Of a stretch of 64,000 nt of DNA, positions 15,910 through 31,026 are shown one piece after another. Within the stretch, counting starts at the first letter, position 1, and every line of letters begins with the position of its first letter. The position numbers and the translations under genes were made by a program. This DNA comes from Pseudomonadota bacterium (lineage in GTDB: Bacteria > Desulfobacterota > Syntrophorhabdia > Syntrophorhabdales > Syntrophorhabdaceae), in NCBI GenBank assembly GCA_026388275.1, contig JAPLKB010000063.1, forward strand, positions 1-64,000, given 5' to 3'. The notes under the pieces are model-generated. The model ran no database searches, had not been told where the DNA came from, and worked only from the letters and a program-made list of their open reading frames with translations.

Positions 15910-17400
15910 ATGAAATTTGATTCTCAGATAGATTTCAATATTGTGCAGTCCATCCTTAATTCTTTGCCCATGGGCGTCTATGTTCTGAACCGTGGACGGA
16001 AAATCCAGTGGAAGAACGAAAGATTAGCACTTCGGTCACAAGAAGAAGGTGTTATTCAATCCGGAAAAGCTTTCTGTTATGGTGAAATCTTTAAAAGGAG
16101 AATGCCATGTAGTAATTGTCCGGGTTTAAGAACACTTAAAAGTGGCCGAATGGAACATACAGAAATAAGTAGCATGTATAAGGGGGAATTAAGGCATTAC
16201 CTTATTACCTCGGCACCTCTCAGGAGTGGCATAGGAGAGGAAGAGACTTTTATCGTTGAGACAGTTCAGGACATTACGGATCAGAAAAGGGCAGAGGAAG
16301 CTTTACGACTCGTAAATGATTTTAATAAAGCTATTATTGATAATGCACCTGTAGCAATCTTTACTATAGACAGGAGTGGGAAGTTTATGAGCGTGAATCC
16401 TGCCTTGGCTACTCTTTCCGGTCTAGGGGTTGAGGCTGAAGAGAAACTCTTGCGTTTCAATTGGATTCAGAATCCTTACACGATCAGATGCGGCCTTGCA
16501 GAATACATAAAAAAAGGACTCGACGGTGAAGCGTTTGAGCTGCAGGACTTTCCTTTTACAACCTATCGGGGTGATCAGGGTCAATATATTCATTTCCGGG
16601 GAGTACCTCTGAAAGGTAAAAATGGTAAGGTAGAAGGGCTTTTATGTATTATTGAGGATAATACCGAAAAAGTGAAAGCTAAAATCCAGTCTATTCAGGA
16701 TGCAAAAATGTCGGTTACAGGAAGACTACTGACAGGTGTTGCGCACGAACTTAATAATCCTCTTGCTACAATAGCTGCTAATTCTGAGCTTGCTTCTGAA
16801 TTGATCCAGAGCTTTAAAGATTGCGATGCAAAAGAAGATGAAATTGATGATCTACGTGAATATATGGACGTCATACAGGAACAGGCATTTCGGTGCAAAA
16901 ATATTATAAAGGATATGATAGATCTTACAAAGAAAAAGGGATTTGAAGTTCAGGAAATTGACTTAAACAGCTGCCTTAATGAACTTCTGAAATTGATAAA
17001 TTTCAAAAAAATGAATATTCGGTTATTAAAGGATATTACACCGTACCTACCGCATGTCAAAGGAGATTTGAATGCTGTGAAACAGTCTTTCATGAATATT
17101 CTGCAGAATGCAGTGGACTCTGTTGAAGAAAGAGAAGGTGGCATAATAACGGTAAAGGCATATTCAACTGACAGTAAAGTGAGGGTAGAAATTGAAGATA
17201 ATGGAGTCGGTATTCACGACGGCCTGATAGACCGGATCTTTGAACCTTTTTTTTCGACTAAAGCCACGGGGAAAGGCGTTGGATTGGGTCTCACACTTTG
17301 TCATGAGTTTTTAAACAGAATGGGTGGTAGCATTGAAGTAGAGAGCAAACTGGGAATGGGTACCCTATTCAAGGTCGCATTGCCTATATATACAAAATAA
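15910..17400 (+). CDS. Cytoplasmic PAS-PAS sensor histidine kinase
   Basis: The 496-residue kinase has two PAS domains (about 10-125 and 135-255), a HisKA dimerisation domain with the phospho-acceptor His279 in GVAHELNNPLATIAA, and a HATPase domain (DNGVGIHDGLIDRIFEPFF, TGKGVGLGL). No signal peptide or membrane helix is seen, so it senses inside the cell. The first PAS domain carries Cys56, Cys67 and Cys70 in FCYGEIFKRRMPCSNCP, a pattern that recurs in PAS kinases of anaerobes and could bind a metal or iron-sulfur cluster. It lies 18 bases before its response regulator gene. The signal is probably redox- or substrate-linked (inference). Confidence 0.9.
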   Translation: MKFDSQIDFNIVQSILNSLPMGVYVLNRGRKIQWKNERLALRSQEEGVIQSGKAFCYGEIFKRRMPCSNCPGLRTLKSGRMEHTEISSMYKGELRHYLITSAPLRSGIGEEETFIVETVQDITDQKRAEEALRLVNDFNKAIIDNAPVAIFTIDRSGKFMSVNPALATLSGLGVEAEEKLLRFNWIQNPYTIRCGLAEYIKKGLDGEAFELQDFPFTTYRGDQGQYIHFRGVPLKGKNGKVEGLLCIIEDNTEKVKAKIQSIQDAKMSVTGRLLTGVAHELNNPLATIAANSELASELIQSFKDCDAKEDEIDDLREYMDVIQEQAFRCKNIIKDMIDLTKKKGFEVQEIDLNSCLNELLKLINFKKMNIRLLKDITPYLPHVKGDLNAVKQSFMNILQNAVDSVEEREGGIITVKAYSTDSKVRVEIEDNGVGIHDGLIDRIFEPFFSTKATGKGVGLGLTLCHEFLNRMGGSIEVESKLGMGTLFKVALPIYTK

Positions 17401-17418
17401 GGGGGCTGATAATAGACA

Positions 17419-18759
17419 ATGGTTCGAGTTCTTATTGTTGATGACGAAAAGCAGCTTGTGGAAGCTTTTAAGAAAAAACTTTCCAAGGAAGGAATGGAGG
17501 TTTTTACCGCATTAAATGGACATGAGGCTCTTTTAGTAATGAACCAGGAAATCCTTGATATCGGACTTTTTGATATAATGCTTCCTGATATAGACGGTAT
17601 TGAACTTCTCGGCAAGTTAAGAGAAATGCAACCCACAACAGAAGTTATTATGCTTACAGGCAATGCGTCAGTTGATACTGCCATAAGATCAATGAAGCTT
17701 GGTGCTTACGATTATCTTACAAAGCCTTGTAAACTTTCAGAATTGCATACAGTCATATTGAAAGCCTATGAAAAGAAACAATTGAAAGAAAAAAATATTG
17801 TTCTCGAGGAACATTTGCAACGGGTTGAACTCCATGACAAGTTTATAGGGGAGAGTAAAGAAATTAAGGAAGTAAAGAAATTTATTTCAATAGTCAGCGC
17901 TTCTACAGCACCTGTTTTAGTACTTGGAGAGACGGGTACGGGAAAAGAGCTGGTGGCAAGAGCAATTCATTCCCTTTCTGTGCGTTCTCCAAACCCATTT
18001 GTAGCGATTAACTCAAGTTGTCTACAGGAAAATATCCTTGAAAGCGAGTTGTTCGGATATAAAAAAGGTGCATTTACAGGTGCACAAACAGACAAAATGG
18101 GACTTTTACAGATTGCGGACAAGGGCACATTTTTTGTCGATGAAGTAGGAGATATGGGTACTTCTATCCAGGCGAAGCTTCTAAGGGTTCTTGAGACTTC
18201 CGTATTCAGGAAGCTTGGCGATACAAAAGAGACAAGAGTGGATGTACGTTTTATTTTTGCCACCAATAAAAGTATTGAAGAAGAAATTGAAACAAACAGA
18301 TTTCGGAAAGACCTTTTTTACCGGCTTAATACCTTTACCATACTTGTACCTCCTCTTCGGGAACGAAAAAACGATATACCTGTTCTAACCGAATATTTTA
18401 TGGAAAAACACACCAGAGGAAGTACAAAGAAAATCATTTCAAAACATGCTATGGACCTTCTTGTAGAATATCACTGGCCTGGAAATGTGAGAGAACTTGC
18501 AAATGTACTGGAGCGAGCCATATTGATTTCCGGGAACAGGATTGAAATTATCAGTGATGACTTTCCGAGAAGCATGACCCACAATTTATCCCCTGCTGCC
18601 GGAAGGGTAAAACAGGAATTGATTGAGAATAAACTACGGCTTGACAGTATGGAAAGGGAACATATTGAGAAGGTGCTGAAACATGCTGATGGCAATAAGA
18701 GCAAAGCCGCCAGACTTCTCGGCATAAGCCGCCGGAAGCTTTACAATATGCTTGAATAA
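17419..18759 (+). CDS. Sigma-54-dependent response regulator (NtrC family)
   Basis: The 446-residue protein has a receiver domain (phospho-acceptor Asp52 in LFDIMLPDIDG), a sigma-54 AAA+ domain with Walker A GETGTGKE, the sigma-54-contacting GAFTGA loop and Walker B GTFFVDEVGD, and a C-terminal Fis-type helix-turn-helix (NKSKAARLLGISRRKLYNM). It partners with the kinase just upstream. Such proteins bind enhancers about 100-200 bases upstream of GG-N10-GC promoters. Candidate sigma-54 promoters exist at 34.9, 36.2 and 45.7 kb, and a perfect palindrome lies 48 bases after this gene; whether it acts on any of these is unknown. Confidence 0.95.
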   Translation: MVRVLIVDDEKQLVEAFKKKLSKEGMEVFTALNGHEALLVMNQEILDIGLFDIMLPDIDGIELLGKLREMQPTTEVIMLTGNASVDTAIRSMKLGAYDYLTKPCKLSELHTVILKAYEKKQLKEKNIVLEEHLQRVELHDKFIGESKEIKEVKKFISIVSASTAPVLVLGETGTGKELVARAIHSLSVRSPNPFVAINSSCLQENILESELFGYKKGAFTGAQTDKMGLLQIADKGTFFVDEVGDMGTSIQAKLLRVLETSVFRKLGDTKETRVDVRFIFATNKSIEEEIETNRFRKDLFYRLNTFTILVPPLRERKNDIPVLTEYFMEKHTRGSTKKIISKHAMDLLVEYHWPGNVRELANVLERAILISGNRIEIISDDFPRSMTHNLSPAAGRVKQELIENKLRLDSMEREHIEKVLKHADGNKSKAARLLGISRRKLYNMLE

Positions 18760-18781: not shown

Positions 18782-18805
18782 TGAAAATAATTTTCATCTT
18801 TTTTT
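18782..18805 (+). terminator. Weak AT-rich terminator after the response regulator
   Basis: TGAAAA and TTTTCA form a six-pair stem with loop TAA, followed by ATCTTTTTTT. The stem is all A-T except one pair, so it is weak. It separates the two-component genes from the ABC transporter operon. Confidence 0.4.
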
Positions 18806-18806
18806 G

Positions 18807-18822
18807 TGCCGACAAGTCGGCA
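18807..18822. promoter_or_regulatory. Perfect palindrome, candidate operator
   Basis: TGCCGACAAGTCGGCA is two seven-base arms around AA. It lies in the 326-base gap before the ABC transporter operon and is GC-rich inside an AT-rich gap, as regulator sites often are. No GG-N10-GC promoter was found between it and the transporter gene at 19086. The rest of this gap shows nothing else recognisable. Confidence 0.4.
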
Positions 18823-19085
18823 TGTGTGTTTAATGTGGAGATGGAATCAGCTTTTTATTACCAATAAAAGGCCATATAATCCAAGATTTATTGTCTGAAA
18901 AAGTATCTAATTAATTTAATAAAAAAGATTATAGTAAAAAAGTACTTGGTTATGCCGGTAAAGATTAAGGATTCAGGCTATTATTATTTAATAATATGTT
19001 GCTTGGATTTAAGATAATCAGCTTCTCACAATACCATTGAGTTGGTGTTGTTGGAAGTTGTATTAAAACAAAGGGGAGGTTTGTT

Positions 19086-20314: not shown

Positions 20315-21181
20315 ATGGGTGACATTTCACATCTCGTCCAATTTTTCTTTAGTGGACTAACTACGGGCAGTATTTACGCTCTGATAGCGGTCAGTCTGGT
20401 AATTGTTTACAAGGTATCGCAGCTAATCTGTTTCTCCCAGGGAGAATTCTTTATTTTCGGGGCACTTATTATGGTCACTCTAACATCAAAAGGGATCCCG
20501 ATGCCTCTTGCTTTTGTCCTTTCCATTCTTATTGCTATGGCCATCGGGGCGCTTATTCAACAGGCCCTGATAAGACCCATTCAGGGTTCCTCCATAGGGG
20601 CATTAATTGTTATGACTATTGCCATTTCCCTTGCACTAAGAGGGTTGGCAATGTTGATCTGGGGTAGGGAATCACATATTCTCCGTCCATTTACACAAGG
20701 CACACCATTACAGATTTTTGGTGCAACCCTTCAACTGCAGGTATTCTGGATTGTCGGGATAACCGCCGTTGTTTTGCTCCTTATATGGCTATTTTTTGAA
20801 AAGACCTCTCTTGGAATAGCCATGCGGGCATGTGCGGAAAATCCTCTTGGCGCAAGTCTGATGGGCATCAGTGTTCAGAAGACTGCGCTTTTTGCATGGG
20901 CTTGGGGGTCCGGAATAGGGGCATTGGCAGGTATTGCCGTTGCCCCTCTAATGTTCATGCAGTATACCAGTGGTGTAATGCCCATGGTGAAGGGATTTAT
21001 CGCTATGTCCATAGGGGGCTTGAGCAGTATTGTAGGGTCAGTGATCGCCGGTCTCCTGCTCGGGGTTATTGAGTCATATACAATCGGGGTTATTTCTTCC
21101 AAATTTTCTGACACTATCGTTTTTGCACTACTGATGGTGGTACTCATAGCAAGACCAAACGGGCTTTTCAGCAAGTCATAG
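20315..21181 (+). CDS. livH: Liv-type ABC transporter permease LivH
   Basis: The 288-residue inner-membrane protein is the LivH-type permease, with about eight hydrophobic helices and the family's opening FFSGLTTGSIYALIAVSLVIVYK. The cytoplasmic coupling segment is CAENPLGASLMGISVQKTALFAWAWGSGIGALAGI, typical of LivH. It pairs with the LivM permease that follows 11 bases downstream to form the channel for the ligand delivered by the binding protein. Confidence 0.95.
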   Translation: MGDISHLVQFFFSGLTTGSIYALIAVSLVIVYKVSQLICFSQGEFFIFGALIMVTLTSKGIPMPLAFVLSILIAMAIGALIQQALIRPIQGSSIGALIVMTIAISLALRGLAMLIWGRESHILRPFTQGTPLQIFGATLQLQVFWIVGITAVVLLLIWLFFEKTSLGIAMRACAENPLGASLMGISVQKTALFAWAWGSGIGALAGIAVAPLMFMQYTSGVMPMVKGFIAMSIGGLSSIVGSVIAGLLLGVIESYTIGVISSKFSDTIVFALLMVVLIARPNGLFSKS

Positions 21182-21192
21182 GCAGATGTGAT

Positions 21193-22149
21193 ATGGACAA
21201 GATAAAAAAAGTCTGGTGGTTGATCCCTGTAGTTATAATCTTTCTATATCCTGTAACCGTTGGCGGGAAATCGGCTTACTGGAGCGGTATACTTGTCTTC
21301 GCAGGCATCTATGTCATTTTGGCTGTTGGCCTTGATCTTCTGATGGGCTTTACAGGCCAGATATCCGTTGGCCATGCGGCGTTTTTTGCAGTGGGCGCTT
21401 ATACATCCGCTGTTCTGACAGTTAAATACGGTTTTTCACCTGTGCTTGCCATGTTCGCCGGTATGTTCTTAAGCGGAATCCTCGCATGGATGATTGGAAG
21501 ACCTGTTCTGGCTCTGAAAGAATACTACCTTGCTATGGCAACCCTTGCTTTTAATGAAATCATTATTACACTTATTGTCGGTTTCGAAAATATAACCGGC
21601 GGCGCCTCGGGACTTCGCGACATTCCGCCATTCAGCATATTCGGGCTTGTTCTTGATAATCATCTCCATTATTACTACTTTGTATGGGCAATTGTTCTCA
21701 TAGTTATTGCAAGTTCTGTACTCATTATACGTTCACCCTTCGGAAGAACTTTAGTCGCTATCCACAGCGACGAGGTAGCGGCCCGCACTTTCGGGGTTGA
21801 TTGTGCAAAATACAAGACCCGCGTTTTTGTACTTGCTAATGTTTTCGCTTCAATTGCAGGTTCTCTGTTTGCACATTCCATGGGATTTATTGCTCCCGAT
21901 GATTTTGGTGTTTCAACTTCTGTCAATATTCTTGTTATGCTCTTTCTGGGAGGGATAGGGACCATATACGGTCCGATTCTGGGGGCTATCTTTCTTAAGC
22001 TCCTTCCGGAGATAACCTATCTGGTACAGGATTACGAATTGCTGCTTAACGGTGTTATTCTCATTATAGTTCTTGTTTTCATGCCGAAAGGCATTTATGG
22101 CATCTTTACAACTTTGAGAAACAGGGTTTTTGAAAAGGCAGGTAAATGA
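21193..22149 (+). CDS. livM: Liv-type ABC transporter permease LivM
   Basis: The 318-residue second permease has the LivM hallmark LLMGFTGQISVGHAAFFAVGAY near the N-terminus and a coupling segment SDEVAARTFGVDCAKYKTRVF. Multiple hydrophobic helices span the length. Its stop overlaps the start of the LivG gene by four bases (ATGA), showing tight coupling to the ATPase. Confidence 0.95.
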   Translation: MDKIKKVWWLIPVVIIFLYPVTVGGKSAYWSGILVFAGIYVILAVGLDLLMGFTGQISVGHAAFFAVGAYTSAVLTVKYGFSPVLAMFAGMFLSGILAWMIGRPVLALKEYYLAMATLAFNEIIITLIVGFENITGGASGLRDIPPFSIFGLVLDNHLHYYYFVWAIVLIVIASSVLIIRSPFGRTLVAIHSDEVAARTFGVDCAKYKTRVFVLANVFASIAGSLFAHSMGFIAPDDFGVSTSVNILVMLFLGGIGTIYGPILGAIFLKLLPEITYLVQDYELLLNGVILIIVLVFMPKGIYGIFTTLRNRVFEKAGK

Positions 22150-22949
22150 CGGAACAGGACAGCACTATTTTAAAACTTGTTGATGTGCAAAAAAGTTTTG
22201 AAGGAGTACATGCGCTTGATCATGTGAGTTTTAGCATAAAGAAAGATCAAATCAAGGCATTGATAGGTCCGAACGGTGCAGGCAAAACCACGCTCCTCAA
22301 TGCAATAAACGGTATAATACCTCCTGACAGCGGTCAAATATTTTTACTCGGCCAAAACCTGGTCGGACTTAGAACTGACAAAGTTGCTTCCCTCGGCCTT
22401 TCAAGGACCTTTCAGCTTGTAAGAATGTTTACGATAAACAATGCCACAGTGCTAGATAATGTTATGCTGGGCGCCCATACAAAACTTAAGCCAAGTTTAC
22501 TCGAGTCAATCTTCCGTCGAGGTAAGGTAGAAAAAGAAGAGAAAGCGGCTCGCGAGAAAGCCTTACGGCTTCTGAAATTCGTGGGCCTTGAAAAAACAGC
22601 CGATGCTGTCCCAACAGCACTTTCTTTTGGCAACCAGCGTTTGGTTGAGCTTGCAAGGGCATTGATGACCGAGCCCCAAATACTTTTACTTGATGAACCG
22701 GCCTCCGGCCTGAATGACACCGAAGTGGAGGATTTTACAAAGCTTCTTCTATCTATCCGGGATAAGGGCATAACAATTCTTCTGGTAGAACACAATATGA
22801 AGCTTGTAATGAACATTGCTGATGATATCGTTGTTCTGGATTTCGGTAAAAAACTAGCAGAAGGCTCCCCGCAGGAGATCTGCGCCAATCCTGAGGTTAT
22901 TGAAGCGTACCTGGGGGTAAAAAATAAAGAGTGTGAAATTAAAATATGA
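22146..22949 (+). CDS. livG: Liv-type ABC transporter ATPase LivG
   Basis: The 267-residue ATPase has Walker A GPNGAGKTT, an LSFGNQRLVELARAL signature (with F-G in place of the usual S-G-G), Walker B LLLDEPASGL and switch His in LVEHNM. It powers import together with LivF. Overlaps of four bases on both sides tie it to LivM and LivF. Confidence 0.95.
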   Translation: MTEQDSTILKLVDVQKSFEGVHALDHVSFSIKKDQIKALIGPNGAGKTTLLNAINGIIPPDSGQIFLLGQNLVGLRTDKVASLGLSRTFQLVRMFTINNATVLDNVMLGAHTKLKPSLLESIFRRGKVEKEEKAAREKALRLLKFVGLEKTADAVPTALSFGNQRLVELARALMTEPQILLLDEPASGLNDTEVEDFTKLLLSIRDKGITILLVEHNMKLVMNIADDIVVLDFGKKLAEGSPQEICANPEVIEAYLGVKNKECEIKI

Positions 22950-23656
22950 TTCTGAATGTTGAACATATATCAGCAGGTTATGGCAAGGTTCAGGTCTTAA
23001 AAGAGATCAATCTGGAAGTGGGAAGCGGTGAAATAGTATGTCTTGTTGGAGCTAACGGCGCAGGAAAGACGACGCTTCTTAAAGTTATTTCCGGAATCAT
23101 ACCCTCAATACAGGGAAAATTATATTTTGACAGCCAGGACATAACCAATCGTAAACCTGATTACATAGTCAGGACGGGTCTGAGTCATGTCCCGGAAGGA
23201 CGACAGATATTTGCTGACCTTACAGTACGACAGAACCTAATACTTGGTGCATATGTACATAAATTGAAAAAAGAGGAAATGGAGAAGCTGTTCAATTTTG
23301 TTTTTGATCTTTTCCCGATCCTGAAAACAAGGTTGACACAGAAAGCCGGGACTATGAGCGGAGGGGAACAACAGATGCTCGCAATCGGGCGAGGCCTAAT
23401 GTCCCAGCCAAAGCTTCTTCTCCTTGATGAACCGTCTCTCGGCCTTGCGCCCCTTGTTGTTGAAATTATATTGAACGTTATCCAGAGTCTCCGGTCTGCC
23501 GGTATTGCAATATTATTAATTGAACAGAATGTCAACGCTGCTCTTCAAATAGCAGATCGGGCATACATCATGGAGACGGGCAGGATTGTCAGCCAGGGTA
23601 GTGCCAAAACACTGCTTGGAGACGATGAAGTACGAAAAAGGTATCTCGGCATGTAA
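22946..23656 (+). CDS. livF: Liv-type ABC transporter ATPase LivF
   Basis: The 236-residue second ATPase shows Walker A GANGAGKTT, the signature MSGGEQQMLAIGRGL, Walker B LLLDEPSLGLAPL and the switch His replaced by Gln in LIEQNV, which is normal in LivF. Its C-terminus ends in RKRYLGM, typical of the family. It completes a five-gene binding-protein-dependent importer. Confidence 0.95.
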   Translation: MILNVEHISAGYGKVQVLKEINLEVGSGEIVCLVGANGAGKTTLLKVISGIIPSIQGKLYFDSQDITNRKPDYIVRTGLSHVPEGRQIFADLTVRQNLILGAYVHKLKKEEMEKLFNFVFDLFPILKTRLTQKAGTMSGGEQQMLAIGRGLMSQPKLLLLDEPSLGLAPLVVEIILNVIQSLRSAGIAILLIEQNVNAALQIADRAYIMETGRIVSQGSAKTLLGDDEVRKRYLGM

Positions 23657-23680
23657 CAATTTTTAAAAAAAGGAGAAGCA

Positions 23681-24361
23681 ATGTATTATGATCCTGATAA
23701 AAACAACCACGGACTACCTCATAATCCTTTCAAGTCCTGCGTTGTACCAAGACCTATTGGATGGATATCGACTATAAGCCCTGACGGATTTCACAACCTT
23801 GCACCATACAGTCAGTTTCAGAACCTCACTTTTGATCCACCTTATGTGATGTTTGCAGCAAATCAGAATACACGTGGAACTCGGAAAGATTCTGCAATAA
23901 ATGCCGAGCAAACCGGTGATTTTGTCTACAATATGGCCACTTACGAACTTCGCGAGGCAGTAAACCGTTCTGCAGCAGAAGTACCGCCGGAGATCGATGA
24001 ATTTGAAATTGCCGGACTGACCAAAGTGCCGTCTGTTATGGTAAAACCTTGCCGGGTAGCAGAATCGCCTGTTCAATTCGAGTGCCGCTACTATCAGACT
24101 ATACGTCTGCCCGGTAACGGACTCATGGGCTCAGTAGATATCATAATAGGTCGTGTAGTTTTGATACATATTAAAGATAATGCAATCACCCCAGACGGAC
24201 GCATTGATATTTTAAAAATCCGTCCGTTGGCACGCCTGGGTTACTACGACTATACAACTGTGGATTCTATCTTCGAAATGGTAATTCCGGGCGAGAATGA
24301 GTCCCTGCTAATTGGTCTCGAGGGTGCCGCAGAGAGTGCTCCCGCCAAAGACAAAAAGTAG
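23681..24361 (+). CDS. Flavin-reductase-like FMN-binding split-barrel protein
   Basis: The 226-residue protein opens YYDPDKNNHGLPHNPFKSCVVPRPIGWISTISPDG, the hallmark of flavin-reductase-like (FMN-binding split-barrel) proteins, and continues NLAPYSQFQNLTFDPPYVMF. Members reduce flavin with NAD(P)H or use bound FMN for a redox step. It follows livF by 24 bases behind AAAGGAGAAG and is probably the last gene of the transporter operon. It might supply reduced flavin for the pathway or act directly on the imported substrate; neither can be told from sequence. Confidence 0.8.
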   Translation: MYYDPDKNNHGLPHNPFKSCVVPRPIGWISTISPDGFHNLAPYSQFQNLTFDPPYVMFAANQNTRGTRKDSAINAEQTGDFVYNMATYELREAVNRSAAEVPPEIDEFEIAGLTKVPSVMVKPCRVAESPVQFECRYYQTIRLPGNGLMGSVDIIIGRVVLIHIKDNAITPDGRIDILKIRPLARLGYYDYTTVDSIFEMVIPGENESLLIGLEGAAESAPAKDKK

Positions 24362-24443
24362 TTTTGCTCAAGGTCAACTACTTTTCATGGAATAAAACGA
24401 TTTAAATTGCCGAAACATTATCTTGCTTAAATGGCAAATATAT

Positions 24444-24471
24444 TTGACATATCACAAAAACATTGTAAAAT
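24444..24471 (+). promoter_or_regulatory. Candidate sigma-70 promoter for the binding-protein/AraC fusion gene
   Basis: TTGACA (24444-24449), a 16-base spacer and TAAAAT (24466-24471) make a good housekeeping promoter 35 bases before the start codon. The regulator therefore has its own promoter, separate from the transporter operon. Confidence 0.5.
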
Positions 24472-24506
24472 TGTGTTAAAACATACTAAGGGAGTTCACT
24501 GGCAGA

Positions 24507-26489
24507 ATGTATACACCCAAAGGGCACTTCAGGGATGAGGAATTTCGTATCGGAGGCATCTTCCCTTTAACGGGATATCTATCCTGGTCTGGAGAATATA
24601 AGCGGAAGGCAGCCGAACTGAAAACCAGAATGATAAATGAAGCCGGTGGTATAAACGGATACCGCCTCAGATTGATAGCGTACGACGATCAGTCTTCTTC
24701 CGAACGGGCAGCTAAAATAGCTGAGGCTTTGATTTTCAAACACAAGGTAATTGCCATGGTAGGCACAGGTTCGCTCCCGATTTCCGGCGCGGTGGCCCGC
24801 ATAGCCAACAAATATAAAATACCGGCATTTTTAAATTCCGGATATGCCATTGATCCCGTCAAAGACCTTTTTGTTTTTAACACCGCACACAAAACTGAAT
24901 TCGCAATAGCATGTTCTTTTCAGCATTTTAAAGAAGAAGATATAAACAGAATCGCCCTTTTAATGCCAACCGGACTTCTCGGAGATTTAGGGAGTTGGCT
25001 GGGCCGACGGCTTGCAAGCCGTTTGGGTATAAAAATCATCTGCGAGGAAAGATTCGACGTCAGGTCGCCGAACATGACATTACAGATAGAAAGGCTGCGT
25101 GGCTTAAACCCCCAAGCGCTTTTTTCATTTGTCACAGGAGAACCGGCCGCATGGGTAGCCAAAAAAATGGCCCAGATAGGTTTAAATATACCTTTGCTCG
25201 TATCCCACGGCAATGCGAACCCCGGATTTCTAAAACTGGTTTCTCATATACCTGTTCCACTTATAGTGCCTTCAGGGAAAAGCATGATCCTCGATTCCAT
25301 TCCGGAAAATGATCCATGTAAAAATGTCGTAATGAATTTTAATAAAAGACATATGCAGAACTATGGAGAACCTGCCAATTATTATTCTGCAGAACTGGCT
25401 GATGCTGTCGATCTGGTAGCTGAGGGTTTGAGGATTGCAGGGTCTGACCCTGAGGAACTGCGCGATGCTGTTGAAAACATAAGGGAATTCAGAGGAATGC
25501 AGGGAACCTATGATTTATCGCCGATTGACCACTATGGCACCCAGCTTGAGCATATGGTTCTGCTAACCATAAAAGAAGGTAAATGGTGCTTTGCTAAAGC
25601 GTTTTCCTCAATAGCGTTTTCCGAGAATATTCATATCAACCAAAAAATTGAGTTAATTAGCAAACTGGCTGACCTGTTGTCTGAACCCCATCCTAATGGC
25701 CTTGCCCAACCAAATCAGGCCCCTCTTTCTATAGGGCCGGAAATACCCTGGATCAATCCGAACCTTACGGATGCTGGTTCCGATACATATTTTGTCGCTA
25801 AACTTTACTGTCGGGATAAACACGACATGGTGCGCGCCGTTCAGAAAGAAGATAAACTCAAAGCCAGACAGATCCTTTATCGGCTGTTGACCGTCACCAT
25901 TTTACAGCATTTCGAAAGTCTTGAAAGTTTTAAAATTTCAGTGCTTGAACTCTTTCTTGCTCTCTTTGATGCTGCCGCAGATGAGGGAGTCGATCTTGAT
26001 AAACTGATAAAACTTAAACACAGATTTATCGTGGAGTGGAAAGGCACTAAAAACCAGGAGACGCTCTGCCTCTGGATTATCAGGGCTCTTGACAGAATAC
26101 TTGACAGCTTTTCCAAAAAAATGTTGGGAAGGGATCTCAATTTGTTGAAAAAGGTATTTCATTACATAGATAAAAATTATGCTGATGATCTGAACGTGGA
26201 CTGCATAGCGCGTGAAGTTTGCTTGAGCAAATCACGTCTGATCCACCGGATGAGAAGCCAGTATGGTTTAACGTTAAGCGATTGCATTGCAAAGATCAGG
26301 ATAGAAAAAGCAAAAGTATTACTCAAGCAAACGGACATGCCTATAAGCAAGATTGCCCACGAAGTAGGTTACGGAGATCAAAGTTATTTCACAAAGGTAT
26401 TTAAAAAAACTCTAAACTGTACCCCAAAGGATTTCAGATGCAGCGCATTGAAATTCTCAGCAGAATTTGAGAACTGGTGGGATGATTAA
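24507..26489 (+). CDS. Cytoplasmic regulator: Liv-type binding protein fused to an AraC DNA-binding domain
   Basis: The 660-residue protein has three parts. Residues 1-370 are a type I periplasmic-binding-protein domain without signal peptide, aligning end to end with the transporter's own binding protein (both share GKYGEPANYYSAE-like, VSHGNANPGFLKLVS and NTAHKTEFA/DFA strings). Residues about 400-540 form a helical region like that preceding the HTH in some PocR/YesN-type regulators. Residues about 545-645 are an AraC HTH pair (LNVDCIAREVCLSKSRLIHRM and ISKIAHEVGYGDQSYFTKVFKK). It most likely senses in the cytoplasm the ligand that the adjacent importer brings in, and controls that operon. 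Domain reading is direct; ligand and target genes are inferred. Confidence 0.88.
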   Translation: MYTPKGHFRDEEFRIGGIFPLTGYLSWSGEYKRKAAELKTRMINEAGGINGYRLRLIAYDDQSSSERAAKIAEALIFKHKVIAMVGTGSLPISGAVARIANKYKIPAFLNSGYAIDPVKDLFVFNTAHKTEFAIACSFQHFKEEDINRIALLMPTGLLGDLGSWLGRRLASRLGIKIICEERFDVRSPNMTLQIERLRGLNPQALFSFVTGEPAAWVAKKMAQIGLNIPLLVSHGNANPGFLKLVSHIPVPLIVPSGKSMILDSIPENDPCKNVVMNFNKRHMQNYGEPANYYSAELADAVDLVAEGLRIAGSDPEELRDAVENIREFRGMQGTYDLSPIDHYGTQLEHMVLLTIKEGKWCFAKAFSSIAFSENIHINQKIELISKLADLLSEPHPNGLAQPNQAPLSIGPEIPWINPNLTDAGSDTYFVAKLYCRDKHDMVRAVQKEDKLKARQILYRLLTVTILQHFESLESFKISVLELFLALFDAAADEGVDLDKLIKLKHRFIVEWKGTKNQETLCLWIIRALDRILDSFSKKMLGRDLNLLKKVFHYIDKNYADDLNVDCIAREVCLSKSRLIHRMRSQYGLTLSDCIAKIRIEKAKVLLKQTDMPISKIAHEVGYGDQSYFTKVFKKTLNCTPKDFRCSALKFSAEFENWWDD

Positions 26490-27026: not shown

Positions 27027-28556
27027 ATGAATCTTGCAACTAATTTAGAGGCGTCGGCACAATATTTTCCATCTCAACCTGCCATCCGACAGGGCGAACT
27101 CCAATGGACCTATGCGGAACTAAACGAAAGGGCAAACCTGGTTGCAGGAGGACTTGTTAAACTGGGGGTTAAACCAGGTGAATATGTGGGACTCTGTTCA
27201 CTAAACTCGGCTGACTGGATTGCCTTCTACTATGGTGTGCTTAAAACAGGAGCTGTGGCCGTAACTTTATCCGGGCTGTTAACAGAGGAGGAACTGGCTA
27301 ATCTAATCAACCACGCAAAACCTCGTATTCTCTTTACGTCGGAATCAAGACTTAATGATGTAATGAAACTAAAAAGCACTGATGGTCTCCAGACAGTTAT
27401 CTGCCCTGACGGAGATATGGACATTGCTCACCTGATGCAGATGGGGAAAGAATCGAGTGTTTTTAGGGCGATCAATAGAAATCGTATTGATACTGCTGCA
27501 ATCCTTTATACAGGAGGAACTACAGGCATTCCGAAAGGTGTTATGCTGACACATGAAGGAATGAACTTCTCCGCCCGGGCCATTGCATATTATGAGCACT
27601 CCAACCAGAACGATCAGGCCCTTTGCTTTCTACCATTTAACCATGTTTTTGGTCAGAATCACATAATGAACTCCACCATCATGAGCTCAGGCTGCTTGGA
27701 ATTACTCCCGACCTTTGATATGGATCTTATATTTGAAGCGATTGCAGCAGGCAGGGTTACAAAATTTTTTGCAGTGCCCACTGTTTATGTCCGTTTTCTT
27801 GGTATGCCTGACCTGGAAAAGAAGGTAGGGAAACTTCGGTATTGTTTTTCTGCAGCGGCAAGTATGGCAAGAGAAATTGTGAAACAATGGAAAGAGCGGA
27901 CAGGTATTACGATAGCAGAGTCCTATGGAATGACGGAGGTTATGCCGATAACATTCAATCATTTCTATCCCGAACAACATGCTGTGGGATCTGTAGGCCC
28001 GGTAGTCCACGGTGTTGAAGCACAGATCAGAGATGCTTCAGGCAATGAGGTACCTCAGGGCCATGAAGGTGAAATTTGTATCAGGGGAAGGAATGTAATG
28101 AAAGCCTATCTTAATAATCCCAAAGACACTGCAGAGGCTCTCTGGCAAGGAGAATGGCTTCGTTCCGGTGATATAGGTTATGTCGACGAGCGTGGTTACT
28201 TTTATATTGTAGACCGCCTGAAAGACCTTATAATCACAGGTGGAGAGAACGTATTTCCTCGTGAAATAGAGGAAGTCCTTTATACAAGACCGGAGGTGCA
28301 GGAATGTGCCGTCATCGGGCTCCCGGACAAAGAGTGGGGAGAGAAAGTTGCCGCATACGTGGTGCCCAAGGAAGGACAACAAATATCCACGGATGCACTA
28401 AAATCCTTTATGAAGTCTACGCTTTCACCTTTTAAAGTACCCAAACAGTTCTTTATAGTCAAGGATTTACCGAAAAGCCCGGCAGGTAAAATTTTGAAAC
28501 GAGAGCTCAAAAAACAGGTCCTTGAAAAACCCGATGATTCTGTAAAGAAAGGGTGA
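27027..28556 (+). CDS. AMP-forming acyl-CoA ligase 1
   Basis: The 509-residue adenylate-forming enzyme activates a carboxylic acid with ATP and CoA. The P-loop-like A3 motif is YTGGTTGIPKGV, A5 is ESYGMTE, A7 is LRSGDIGYVD and the catalytic Lys of A10 is in PKSPAGKILKRE. It resembles medium/long-chain acyl- and aryl-CoA ligases and is clearly paralogous to ligase 2 at 29527. It starts with MNLATNLEASA behind AAGGAG. Convergent to the FadR/GntR gene. The acid it activates is not evident. Confidence 0.9.
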   Translation: MNLATNLEASAQYFPSQPAIRQGELQWTYAELNERANLVAGGLVKLGVKPGEYVGLCSLNSADWIAFYYGVLKTGAVAVTLSGLLTEEELANLINHAKPRILFTSESRLNDVMKLKSTDGLQTVICPDGDMDIAHLMQMGKESSVFRAINRNRIDTAAILYTGGTTGIPKGVMLTHEGMNFSARAIAYYEHSNQNDQALCFLPFNHVFGQNHIMNSTIMSSGCLELLPTFDMDLIFEAIAAGRVTKFFAVPTVYVRFLGMPDLEKKVGKLRYCFSAAASMAREIVKQWKERTGITIAESYGMTEVMPITFNHFYPEQHAVGSVGPVVHGVEAQIRDASGNEVPQGHEGEICIRGRNVMKAYLNNPKDTAEALWQGEWLRSGDIGYVDERGYFYIVDRLKDLIITGGENVFPREIEEVLYTRPEVQECAVIGLPDKEWGEKVAAYVVPKEGQQISTDALKSFMKSTLSPFKVPKQFFIVKDLPKSPAGKILKRELKKQVLEKPDDSVKKG

Positions 28557-28613
28557 AATTTAATTTCTCATATATTAATTTTGTAGGACATATTATGTTT
28601 GGCAAAAAAAAAA

Positions 28614-29336
28614 TTACAAAGCTCTTTCTCTGAAGCTTTTTTCTAAATTGATCAGATTTTCTCCGAATTCTATTGTATGACGCCGCATTTCTGCAGCAGC
28701 TAAGTCAGGTTTTCGGGCAAGAACGGCCTCAACGACAGAGCGATGCATTCCCGCCGGATGGATAAAGGGTTGCCCAGAATTTACCGTTTGAACAACCTGC
28801 CTGGTCAAGGCCATGAGTGACCTCTCCAGTGCCTCAAGAAAATGGTTTCCACAAATCTCAGCAAGTATATAATGGACAGCAGTCTTTCTGTCCAGGTCTT
28901 CCGCTAAAGAACACACTGGTAGATCCTCGATTTCTAAAGCTTCTTTCAAAAGCTTCGCATGTTTTCGTCCTATACGTGTGGCTGACAGCCGTGCTATTTC
29001 AGGCTCTACAAGAAGTCTTACCTCTACAAGTTCCGGAACAGATATTTTTTCAGCTAAAAAAAGATCAACAAAAGCATTACTAAGATGTTCAAATGTCAGG
29101 TCTGTAACAAATGTGCCGCCTGTAACACCCTGACGGGTAGCGACAAATCCCGTATTCTCAAGTCGCCTCAAGGCCTCGCGGACAGCAATTCGGCTTACCT
29201 GGAACTGATCTGCAAGATCGCGCTCAGATGGCAATTTATCTCCTGCCTTGAAGGTGCTCAAAAGAATGGATTGCTTCAGTTGTTCAGCCACTTCCTCTGA
29301 TATTCTGGATTGTTTAATAGGTTTAAACGCAGACAT
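28614..29336 (-). CDS. FadR-type GntR-family transcriptional regulator
   Basis: The 240-residue protein has the GntR winged helix at the N-terminus (KLPSERDLADQFQVSRIAVREALRRLENTGFV) and an all-helical FCD ligand domain after residue 90, including the His-containing AVHYILAEICGNHFLEAL and HRSVVEAV that usually bind a metal and an organic acid. It sits between two paralogous acyl-CoA ligase genes and is divergent from ligase 2. Most likely it represses one or both ligases until an organic acid or acyl-CoA binds (inference from family and position). Confidence 0.92.
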   Translation of the reverse strand: MSAFKPIKQSRISEEVAEQLKQSILLSTFKAGDKLPSERDLADQFQVSRIAVREALRRLENTGFVATRQGVTGGTFVTDLTFEHLSNAFVDLFLAEKISVPELVEVRLLVEPEIARLSATRIGRKHAKLLKEALEIEDLPVCSLAEDLDRKTAVHYILAEICGNHFLEALERSLMALTRQVVQTVNSGQPFIHPAGMHRSVVEAVLARKPDLAAAEMRRHTIEFGENLINLEKSFRERAL

Positions 29337-29409
29337 TTTATTTTCCTTTTATGTTTTCTATAATATATACAAGGTAATCATTTTTGCAAGAATATTTTTA
29401 ACTATTTTC

Positions 29410-29447
29410 TTGACAAAATTAATTCATGGGATTAAATATTATACCAA
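29410..29447 (+). promoter_or_regulatory. Candidate promoter and operator for acyl-CoA ligase 2
   Basis: TTGACA (29410-29415), 17 bases, TAAATA (29433-29438), then ATTATACCAA (29438-29447). It lies between the divergent regulator and ligase 2 and matches the site before ligase 1 in both blocks and spacing. Confidence 0.5.
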
Positions 29448-29526
29448 TCATACATCGAACTCATCTTATAATGGAAAACATCGACTTTTCTAAGTATTTT
29501 TATTTTATATAGTGTGGAGGAAGTAT

Positions 29527-31026
29527 ATGAACGTTGCAAGGAACCTTGAAAGATCAGCCTTTTATTTTTCGGAACAGCCAGCGTTGGCTGAGGCTGGATC
29601 ACAAATCTCTTATGGAGAACTGAACGATCGTGTAGACCGTATTGCTACAGGCCTAATAAAAATGGGCCTACAGCCGGGAGAACATGTCGGCATCTGTGCA
29701 CCTAACTCATCTGATTGGATAACATTCTACTTCGCTGTTCTGAAAACAGGAGCCGTGGCAGTGACATACTCCAGCCTTTTGAGTAAAGATGAATTAAGAC
29801 TACTTGTAGACCATGCAAAACCAAAGTTCATATTTGCCTCAGAAGATAAGTTAAACGATCTTGAGGTGCTACGGAGTTCAGCAGGTATAGAAAGTATTAT
29901 ATGTGATGGGGGCGACACAACCTTGCAACGCATTATAAACGCAGGAACAAATCATTTTAAGGCAGTCGAGAGAGAGCGAACCGATACTGCTGCTGTCCTT
30001 TATACCGGTGGTACAACCGGTGTTCCAAAAGGGGTTATGCTTACCCATGAAAATATCAACACATCTGCCCATAATGTAGCTCATAATGAACATTCCAACC
30101 AGTATGATAGAGCCCTCTGCTTCCTTCCTTTTAACCACGTTTTTGGTCAAGCTCATATTATGAATGCAACAATTTATAGTGCAGGATGCCTTGAAATTCT
30201 TCCAATTTTTAATCTCGATCAGGTTTTGGAAGCAACAGCCAGCGGCAGAGTGACCAAACTTTTTGCGGTACCTACCGTGTACACCCGTTTGTTAAATATT
30301 GAAGGTATTAAGGAAAAACTGGGAAAGGTACGCTATTGCTTTTCGGCAGCAGCTTCTATGGCAGAAGAAATAGTCCGGCAGTGGAAGAATCATACAGGGC
30401 TGACAATATATGAAGGCTACGGTCTTACCGAATCAGCTTCCGCTGTTACCTTCAACCATTATTACCCTGAAAGGCATGTAGTGGGGTCAATCGGTACAGA
30501 AGTCCCCGGCGTAGAAGTACAGATCCGTGATATATCGGGGAACGTGCTTGAACAAGGGCAAGAGGGCGAGATCTGCATTTTAGGACACAATATCATGAAA
30601 GGGTACCTGGATAACCCCGAGGCAACCCGTGAAGCCTTCTGGGAGGGCGGATGGTTCAGATCAGGAGACATTGGTTTTTTTGATAAGGACGGTTACCTTT
30701 ACATAGTCGACCGCCTGAAGGATATGATTATTACCGGTGGAGAAAATGTCTATCCGCGCGAAGTGGAAGAAATAATTTATAAGAAGACTGAGGTCGAAGA
30801 ATGTGCTGTTGTGGGATTTCCCGACAAGGAGTGGGGAGAGAAAGTTATAGCCTTTGTCGTACCGAGACCTGGAAAAACTGTTGTAGCTGAAGACCTAAAA
30901 TCATTTCTGAAAGCCAGGCTTTCGCCTTTCAAAGTACCAAAGGAGTATGTTATATTGGAAGAAATGCCTAAGAGTCCTGCCGGTAAAATATTGAAACGTG
31001 AGCTGAAAAAAATATTTTCTCGGTGA
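29527..31026 (+). CDS. AMP-forming acyl-CoA ligase 2
   Basis: The start is placed at 29527, the ATG after GTGGAGGAAGTAT; an upstream GTG overlaps the ribosome-binding site. The 499-residue enzyme has A3 YTGGTTGVPKGV, A5 EGYGLTE, A7 FRSGDIGFFD and A10 PKSPAGKILKRE, all intact. It is a close paralogue of ligase 1 and lies 97 bases before TRAP system 1, so activation and uptake of the same acid may be linked. Specificity is unknown. Confidence 0.9.
   Translation: MNVARNLERSAFYFSEQPALAEAGSQISYGELNDRVDRIATGLIKMGLQPGEHVGICAPNSSDWITFYFAVLKTGAVAVTYSSLLSKDELRLLVDHAKPKFIFASEDKLNDLEVLRSSAGIESIICDGGDTTLQRIINAGTNHFKAVERERTDTAAVLYTGGTTGVPKGVMLTHENINTSAHNVAHNEHSNQYDRALCFLPFNHVFGQAHIMNATIYSAGCLEILPIFNLDQVLEATASGRVTKLFAVPTVYTRLLNIEGIKEKLGKVRYCFSAAASMAEEIVRQWKNHTGLTIYEGYGLTESASAVTFNHYYPERHVVGSIGTEVPGVEVQIRDISGNVLEQGQEGEICILGHNIMKGYLDNPEATREAFWEGGWFRSGDIGFFDKDGYLYIVDRLKDMIITGGENVYPREVEEIIYKKTEVEECAVVGFPDKEWGEKVIAFVVPRPGKTVVAEDLKSFLKARLSPFKVPKEYVILEEMPKSPAGKILKRELKKIFSR

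Follow-up and report, generated by a model that had tools for sequence, protein, structure and literature searches.

A fusion of an importer-type solute-binding domain with a PocR-type linker and an AraC domain, encoded beside its related importer operon in Syntrophorhabdales

The importer locus and the fusion protein

The window, i.e., the whole stretch of DNA analyzed here (64,000 nucleotides of contig JAPLKB010000063.1 in assembly GCA_026388275.1, the Syntrophorhabdaceae genome hereafter called G000), carries a Liv-type importer operon that starts with the gene for a solute-binding protein (SBP) and ends with a flavin-reductase-like gene, next to which lies a gene encoding a second, signal-less SBP domain fused to an AraC-type DNA-binding domain (Table 1). 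The flavin-reductase-like gene has a counterpart at the matching position in six other genomes (G001, G014, G041, G006, G037, and G011). Immediately upstream of the importer SBP gene are genes for a PAS histidine kinase and an NtrC-type sigma-54 response regulator (window 15910-18759), and a terminator-like hairpin (18805-18824) was observed between the response regulator gene and the conserved element listed in Table 1. An Rfam match at the SBP intergenic region was sub-threshold (27 bits versus 81) and was taken as chance.

Table 1. Features of the importer-fusion locus (coordinates in the window)
Feature	Coordinates	Strand	Basis
Conserved ~65-bp element, candidate operator/promoter target of the fusion	18851..18915	+	Leave-one-out z 7.0-10.9; 1 copy per fusion genome
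Importer SBP with signal peptide, 388 aa	19086..20252	+	Pfam, hydropathy
Importer permease, LivH type	20315..21181	+	Position and sequence in conserved operon; name inferred
Importer permease, LivM type	21193..22149	+	Position and sequence in conserved operon; name inferred
Importer ATPase, LivG type	22146..22949	+	Position and sequence in conserved operon; name inferred
Importer ATPase, LivF type	22946..23656	+	Position and sequence in conserved operon; name inferred
Flavin-reductase-like protein, last gene of conserved operon	23681..24361	+	Pfam Flavin_Reduct
Sigma-70-like promoter of fusion gene, TTGACA-16-TAAAAT	24444..24471	+	TTGACT-16-TAAAAT at matching place in G001
Fusion gene, 660 aa: signal-less type I SBP domain, helical linker, AraC-type DNA-binding domain	24507..26489	+	Pfam, BLASTP, orthologues, AlphaFold
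SBP (Peripla_BP_6) domain, residues about 6-366	24522..25604	+	Pfam, structural similarity to R. palustris aromatic-acid SBPs (Z about 45), tree
Five-helix linker module, residues 426-541, homologous to PocR-AraC linker	25782..26129	+	AlphaFold, sequence comparison
AraC-type HTH domain, residues 546-645	26142..26441	+	Pfam HTH_18 / HTH_AraC

The fusion gene is one uninterrupted frame of 660 codons, running from the ATG to the stop codon that delimit it in Table 1. Pfam analysis assigned residues 13 to 346 to Peripla_BP_6 (E = 3e-33; 116 bits versus a cutoff of 31.7) and residues 567 to 644 to HTH_18 (E = 5e-21; 75.3 bits versus 33.6), with HTH_AraC matching in two stretches (65.5 bits versus 26.6). 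The protein thereby combines the AraC-type double helix-turn-helix (HTH) domain of the AraC/XylS family with the Peripla_BP_6 domain and two-lobed type I fold of HAAT/LivJ-kind SBPs. In a BLASTP alignment, residues 3 to 360 were identical to the importer SBP at 209 of 359 positions (58%; 3 gaps), and the earlier reading of this locus from its sequence alone, which equated the N-terminal 370 residues with the SBP of the neighboring importer, was correct to within a few residues. The remaining SBP matches within the same genome reached 23 to 31% identity and mostly covered part of the domain. An AlphaFold model based on 28 aligned sequences (mean pLDDT 83; an earlier model from 4 sequences, with a pLDDT of 54, was set aside) places the SBP domain at about residues 6 to 366, followed by a helix (375-391), a disordered stretch (394-425), a helical bundle (426-541), and the HTH domain (546-645). 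Together with the HTH_18 match, this layout agrees with the helical linker and AraC domain described in the sequence-only reading. No Pfam family was found for the five-helix linker.

As that reading had also held, no signal peptide was found at the N terminus of the fusion, where the SBP core begins after 14 residues and hydropathy over 12 residues peaks at −1.7, versus +2.7 in the importer SBP; upstream of the ATG, the frame stays open for only about 9 codons. Across the four complete fusions, a strongly hydrophobic N terminus was likewise absent (best 12-residue hydropathy, −1.7 to 0.5), while all compared unfused SBPs have one (2.4 to 3.4). The fusion thus lacks the export signal expected of an SBP that serves as an importer component.

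Orthologues, genomic linkage, and parentage

Besides G000, copies of the fusion gene were found in G001, G041, G014, G006, and G003. The orthologues in G001, G041, and G014 are full length (75%, 64%, and 51% identical, respectively), while the G006 copy is cut by the end of its contig, leaving the C-terminal 239 residues, and the G003 copy (L053:1522-3320) is a pseudogene with 8 stops. An importer SBP of the fusion-linked family was not found in G003, and the decayed fusion there lies near a gene that, by eye, resembles a phage-type integrase. A frame shift or assembly join between the two halves, for which the sequence-only reading had proposed a check, was not found; because intact full-length orthologues occur in three other genomes, an artifact joining two genes is ruled out for practical purposes and its probability is negligible. 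The dN/dS ratio between G000 and G001 was below 0.2 in all segments of the fusion, a value that is qualitative only, because synonymous sites are near saturation. Over the 366 codons of the SBP domain, dN was 0.10, and the motifs SHGNAxPxFLK and IVPSGKS are invariant across fusions. Along the cluster (window 22946-26489 versus L049 6361-9857), G000 and G001 diverge increasingly at synonymous sites, with values of 0.3-0.5 in the importer genes, 1.1 in the flavin reductase gene, and about 2.2 in the fusion gene, suggesting that the 3′ end was recombined or replaced in one of the two genomes.

The fusion gene adjoins the SBP-LivH-LivM-LivG-LivF-flavin reductase operon in all five genomes with an intact or contig-cut copy; it is found downstream of the operon in three of them (G000, G001, and G014) and upstream of the SBP gene in the other two (G041 and G006). 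Thus, the search for the same fusion beside Liv-type operons elsewhere, another check proposed at the outset, found it in four further genomes. This adjacency, kept despite the altered gene order, argues for a functional link between the fusion and the importer. The kinase/NtrC-type pair, on the other hand, does not adjoin the operon in either G001 or G014.

Phylogenetic analysis that used distantly related SBPs (about 33% identity) as the outgroup revealed that the fused SBP domains group in a single clade (support 100/100) that excludes every unfused SBP encoded in the operon; the G014 fusion sits on a long branch, and the fusion is present in two families of the order. This topology indicates that the fusion arose once and is old, with an SBP duplication that predates the genome of the window. 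The other parent is identifiable as well, since the region from about residue 370 to 650 matches the linker-HTH portion of AraC proteins that carry a PocR domain in other members of the phylum: the linker is ~30% identical over 116 residues to those of five such proteins (G050, G181, G153, G369, and G089), and the HTH is 48 to 56% identical to theirs. Because its C-terminal half matches a PocR-type AraC regulator in both linker and HTH, the chimera looks like a sensor-domain swap in which the SBP replaced the PocR sensor, and the helical linker may be a general module for signal transmission or dimerization. The origin initially suggested (duplication of the SBP gene, loss of the export signal, and fusion to an AraC domain) therefore needs revision: a signal-less SBP paralogue was indeed joined to an AraC domain, but the age of the fused clade and its presence in two families speak against a recent duplication in the genome of the window, and the matching linker and HTH speak against a bare AraC domain as the parent.

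Outside this group, a single-protein query against public genome contigs gave no match to the fusion, and an alignment-based scan of such contigs returned only the G014 and G041 records and one Paenibacillus AraC match. No plasmid record covered 80% of the query, and in 299 genomes of the Paenibacillus phylum the matches above the limit were to SBPs only. The apparent rarity of the fusion thus describes a sampled rather than an exhaustive set, and fusions assembled from other parents could escape these searches.

A conserved element upstream of the importer and control in relatives

Comparison of the regions upstream of the SBP genes revealed a conserved element of ~65 bp in all five fusion genomes, with leave-one-out scores of z 7.0 to 10.9 and 0 of 1,000 shuffles as high (G000 and G001 being removed together); these scores are somewhat favorable, since the element was picked from the same loci as tested. 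At the seven importer loci that lack the fusion, z did not exceed 1.9 and no such element was found. A 67-base profile, searched against 46 genomes of the order (a search of the class gave the same 46), had five strong matches, one per genome, which coincided exactly with the fusion genomes and all lay upstream of the SBP gene; their E values were 4e-12 or better, which follows by construction in the profile's own training genomes, and the next best was 0.008. The other 41 genomes of the class contained no strong match, and no second strong copy, e.g., before the fusion gene, was found elsewhere in the genome or window. The contrast extends to close relatives: of G041 and G037, which belong to one genus and have neighboring SBPs in the tree, the former has both fusion and element and the latter has neither. 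An association of 5/5 versus 0/7 would arise once in 792 arrangements if the loci were independent, a figure that is not used as a P value because the twelve loci are related. This co-occurrence supports the proposal, made in the sequence-only reading, that the fusion may control the importer operon.

In G041 and G006, the element lies between the fusion and the SBP gene. In G041, it ends about 21 bases before the SBP start codon and must therefore overlap or adjoin the promoter. The element contains CAA-containing repeats 20 to 21 bp apart, which recall AraC half-sites; their register differs among the five copies, and a self-shift test gave no clear common period. Alternatively, what is conserved could be the promoter of the importer itself, retained for a different factor, or the element may have moved together with the fusion as one block.

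Importers in relatives without the fusion appear to be controlled differently. At the importer loci of G021, G030, G032, G036, and G011, another gene lies upstream of the SBP gene; profile analysis identified it as a PAS-sigma54 activator in G021 and G011, and by eye it has a similar sequence and the same position in G030, G032, and G036. Moreover, a −24/−12 site with 0 or 1 mismatches occurs 49 to 57 bases before the SBP start in five of the seven fusion-less importers (G021, G030, G032, G036, and G012), while none was found at the SBP gene of the fusion genomes, including the SBP intergenic region of the window. The simplest reading is that related operons are run by different regulators. 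In G030 (L057:8482-8660), G032 (L056), and G036 (L058), the strong sigma-54 promoter is accompanied by a perfect CATGTCA-N4-TGACATG palindrome ~147 bases before the SBP start, a likely activator site.

Ligand, proposed mechanism, and comparison with known systems

The fold of the fusion sensor is closest to those of the Rhodopseudomonas palustris aromatic-acid SBPs (Z about 45) and IadK2, i.e., to structures that bind p-coumarate, caffeate, and, for IadK2, indole-acetate (PMC10374108); RPA1789 is a reported binder of p-coumaric, ferulic, and cinnamic acids (PMC3223731). The window also encodes acyl-CoA ligases, an acyl-CoA dehydrogenase, an ETF subunit, and a molybdopterin hydroxylase, and acyl-CoA-ligase-like open reading frames were seen by eye near the importer in several relatives. 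Taken together, the fold and these neighboring genes point to an organic acid, perhaps an aromatic one, as the probable ligand. Two similar acyl-CoA ligase genes (27027 and 29512) flank a divergent GntR/FCD regulator gene (28614) at window 27027-31026. When eight IadK2 pocket positions were mapped by alignment (offset 27, which reproduces seven of the eight IadK2 residues given in the paper, the exception being position 125, Ala in the chain and Thr in the paper [PMC10374108]), six were identical between the fusion and the importer SBP and two differed conservatively (L90/V112 and V185/I207), while the outgroup SBPs differed at seven or eight. Pocket regions were not significantly more conserved than the whole (62% versus 56% identity; P about 0.2), which allows the same ligand for both proteins. 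That the two read the same ligand, as originally proposed, is thus plausible judging from the pocket residues, but it gains no weight from extra pocket conservation, and SBPs as similar as IadK2 and IadK3 (~70% identical) bind different ligands (PMC10374108).

On balance, we consider it probable that the fusion is a cytoplasmic, ligand-responsive one-component activator dedicated to the adjacent importer operon, and we hold with somewhat greater confidence that it controls the importer, whatever the sign. In such a scheme, an ancient importer-SBP paralogue without an export signal would have taken the place of PocR in a PocR-linker-AraC regulator; the resulting protein would remain in the cytoplasm and hold the solute brought in by the importer, which is probably an aromatic acid or a similar organic acid, in its interlobe cleft, and lobe closure would be relayed via the helical bundle to the AraC domain. 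The latter would bind at the SBP promoter, on the ~65-bp element, most likely activating the operon and so giving positive feedback on uptake. The single-copy element and the fusion gene's own promoter fit a local regulator. More tentatively, it is possible that in one lineage a duplicate of the importer's own SBP stayed in the cytoplasm and displaced the PocR domain of an AraC regulator, that with a new operator it came to govern an importer which relatives run by a sigma-54 activator, and that the same ligand is thereby read outside by the SBP and inside by the regulator.

The fusion might regulate the importer and yet sense a different compound, e.g., a downstream intermediate rather than the transported solute; the overall identity of just 58%, the two pocket changes, and the precedent of IadK2 and IadK3 leave room for this, particularly as L90/V112 corresponds to IadK2 Ser104, which was part of a double change that abolished indole-acetate binding (PMC10374108). 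Given that both substitutions are conservative, that fusion and importer SBP agree at the remaining six mapped positions, and that outgroup SBPs differ at seven or eight of the eight, we regard a different ligand as rather unlikely. A domain that no longer binds any ligand and has a structural or protein-contact role is far harder to sustain: binding is so far predicted and the G014 lineage has a long branch, but the strong constraint on the SBP domain and its invariant motifs make this very improbable.

Returning to the proposed activator, its sign is not fixed by the sequence, and the fusion could instead repress the operon until relieved by ligand, the more so as a protein bound to the G041 element, so near the start codon, could block the promoter. 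However, AraC-family regulators are mostly activators, and the sister loci use a sigma-54 activator type, so repression appears unlikely. Control of the importer by the histidine kinase and NtrC-type regulator, with the fusion controlling something else, is suggested by the position of that pair directly upstream of the SBP gene and by the sigma-54 control indicated in relatives; this is quite improbable given that the SBP intergenic region of the window has no −24/−12 site, that the fusion rather than the pair accompanies the operon in G001 and G014, and that the importer locus has the sole strong copy of the element.

Several known systems share individual features with the fusion. Btr (YbbB) of Bacillus subtilis, an AraC-type regulator of the FeuABC siderophore importer (Gaballa and Helmann 2007, as cited in PMC9609785), follows the same principle in that its sensory domain is like the importer's own SBP (FeuA). 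In Btr, the HTH occupies positions 167 to 261 of the 531-position profile and the sensor is C-terminal, whereas the type I SBP of the fusion is N-terminal. The Btr sensor is a siderophore-type SBP of a different fold class, and the NCBIfam Btr model matched the fusion in the HTH region only (40.1 bits versus a cutoff of 900), which sets the fusion outside this family. XylR of Escherichia coli has an N-terminal domain with a two-lobed periplasmic-binding-protein fold; this sensor is LacI/GalR-like and, unlike that of the fusion, is not a paralogue of a LivJ-type importer SBP. A C-terminal AraC domain is common to both (PDB 4fe4 and 4fe7; HTH match at 289-384), but no LacI-type family was matched in the N terminus of the fusion at E 0.1, Peripla_BP_6 being found instead, and the fusion is not of the XylR type.

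Cytoplasmic, signal-less sensors of SBP fold are also known from NasS (NasS-NasT) and AmiC (AmiC-AmiR); NasS is a homologue of the nitrate importer SBP with ligand residues retained (PMC3795266), and AmiC has the same fold as the fusion sensor (Z 37.5). Both are separate proteins acting on an ANTAR partner, whereas the fusion combines sensor and DNA-binding domain in one chain and belongs with neither. The closest matches to the fusion sensor in fold and sequence, the type I SBPs of aromatic-acid importers (IadK2 [7YLT], R. palustris RPA1789 [4JB0/4JB2], and 4F8J), are exported importer components that are 22 to 23% identical to it and differ at most pocket letters. Thus, SBP-like sensors in AraC regulators (Btr and XylR) and signal-less importer-SBP homologues as cytoplasmic sensors (NasS, and AmiC for fold) are already known. 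The combination of a LivJ-type importer SBP paralogue, a PocR-type linker, and an AraC domain, encoded with its own importer, appears to be new, no published Peripla_BP_6-AraC regulator or other precedent having been found in the open-access literature searched.

The chimera would represent a clear natural case in which the regulator of an importer acquired its sensor from that importer's binding protein. Its two parents can be identified, it arose once, it has a candidate operator, and the sister operons carry a different regulator, so that regulator exchange and sensor-domain swapping become testable in one small group. The architecture also suggests a biosensor design in which an SBP is placed on a PocR-type AraC scaffold, and it shows that SBP genes without an export signal may carry a wrong annotation as importer components.

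The PocR-domain AraC regulators share linker and HTH with the fusion, whereas PF10114, the sensory domain PocR, is theirs only (profile-tested in two of the five regulators compared) and had no match in the fusion at E 0.1, which places the fusion outside that group. Their genes (L054, L065, L066, L067, and L068) lie in a conserved neighborhood that includes a short open reading frame with a conserved LACSVME motif near its start and a methyltransferase-like open reading frame.
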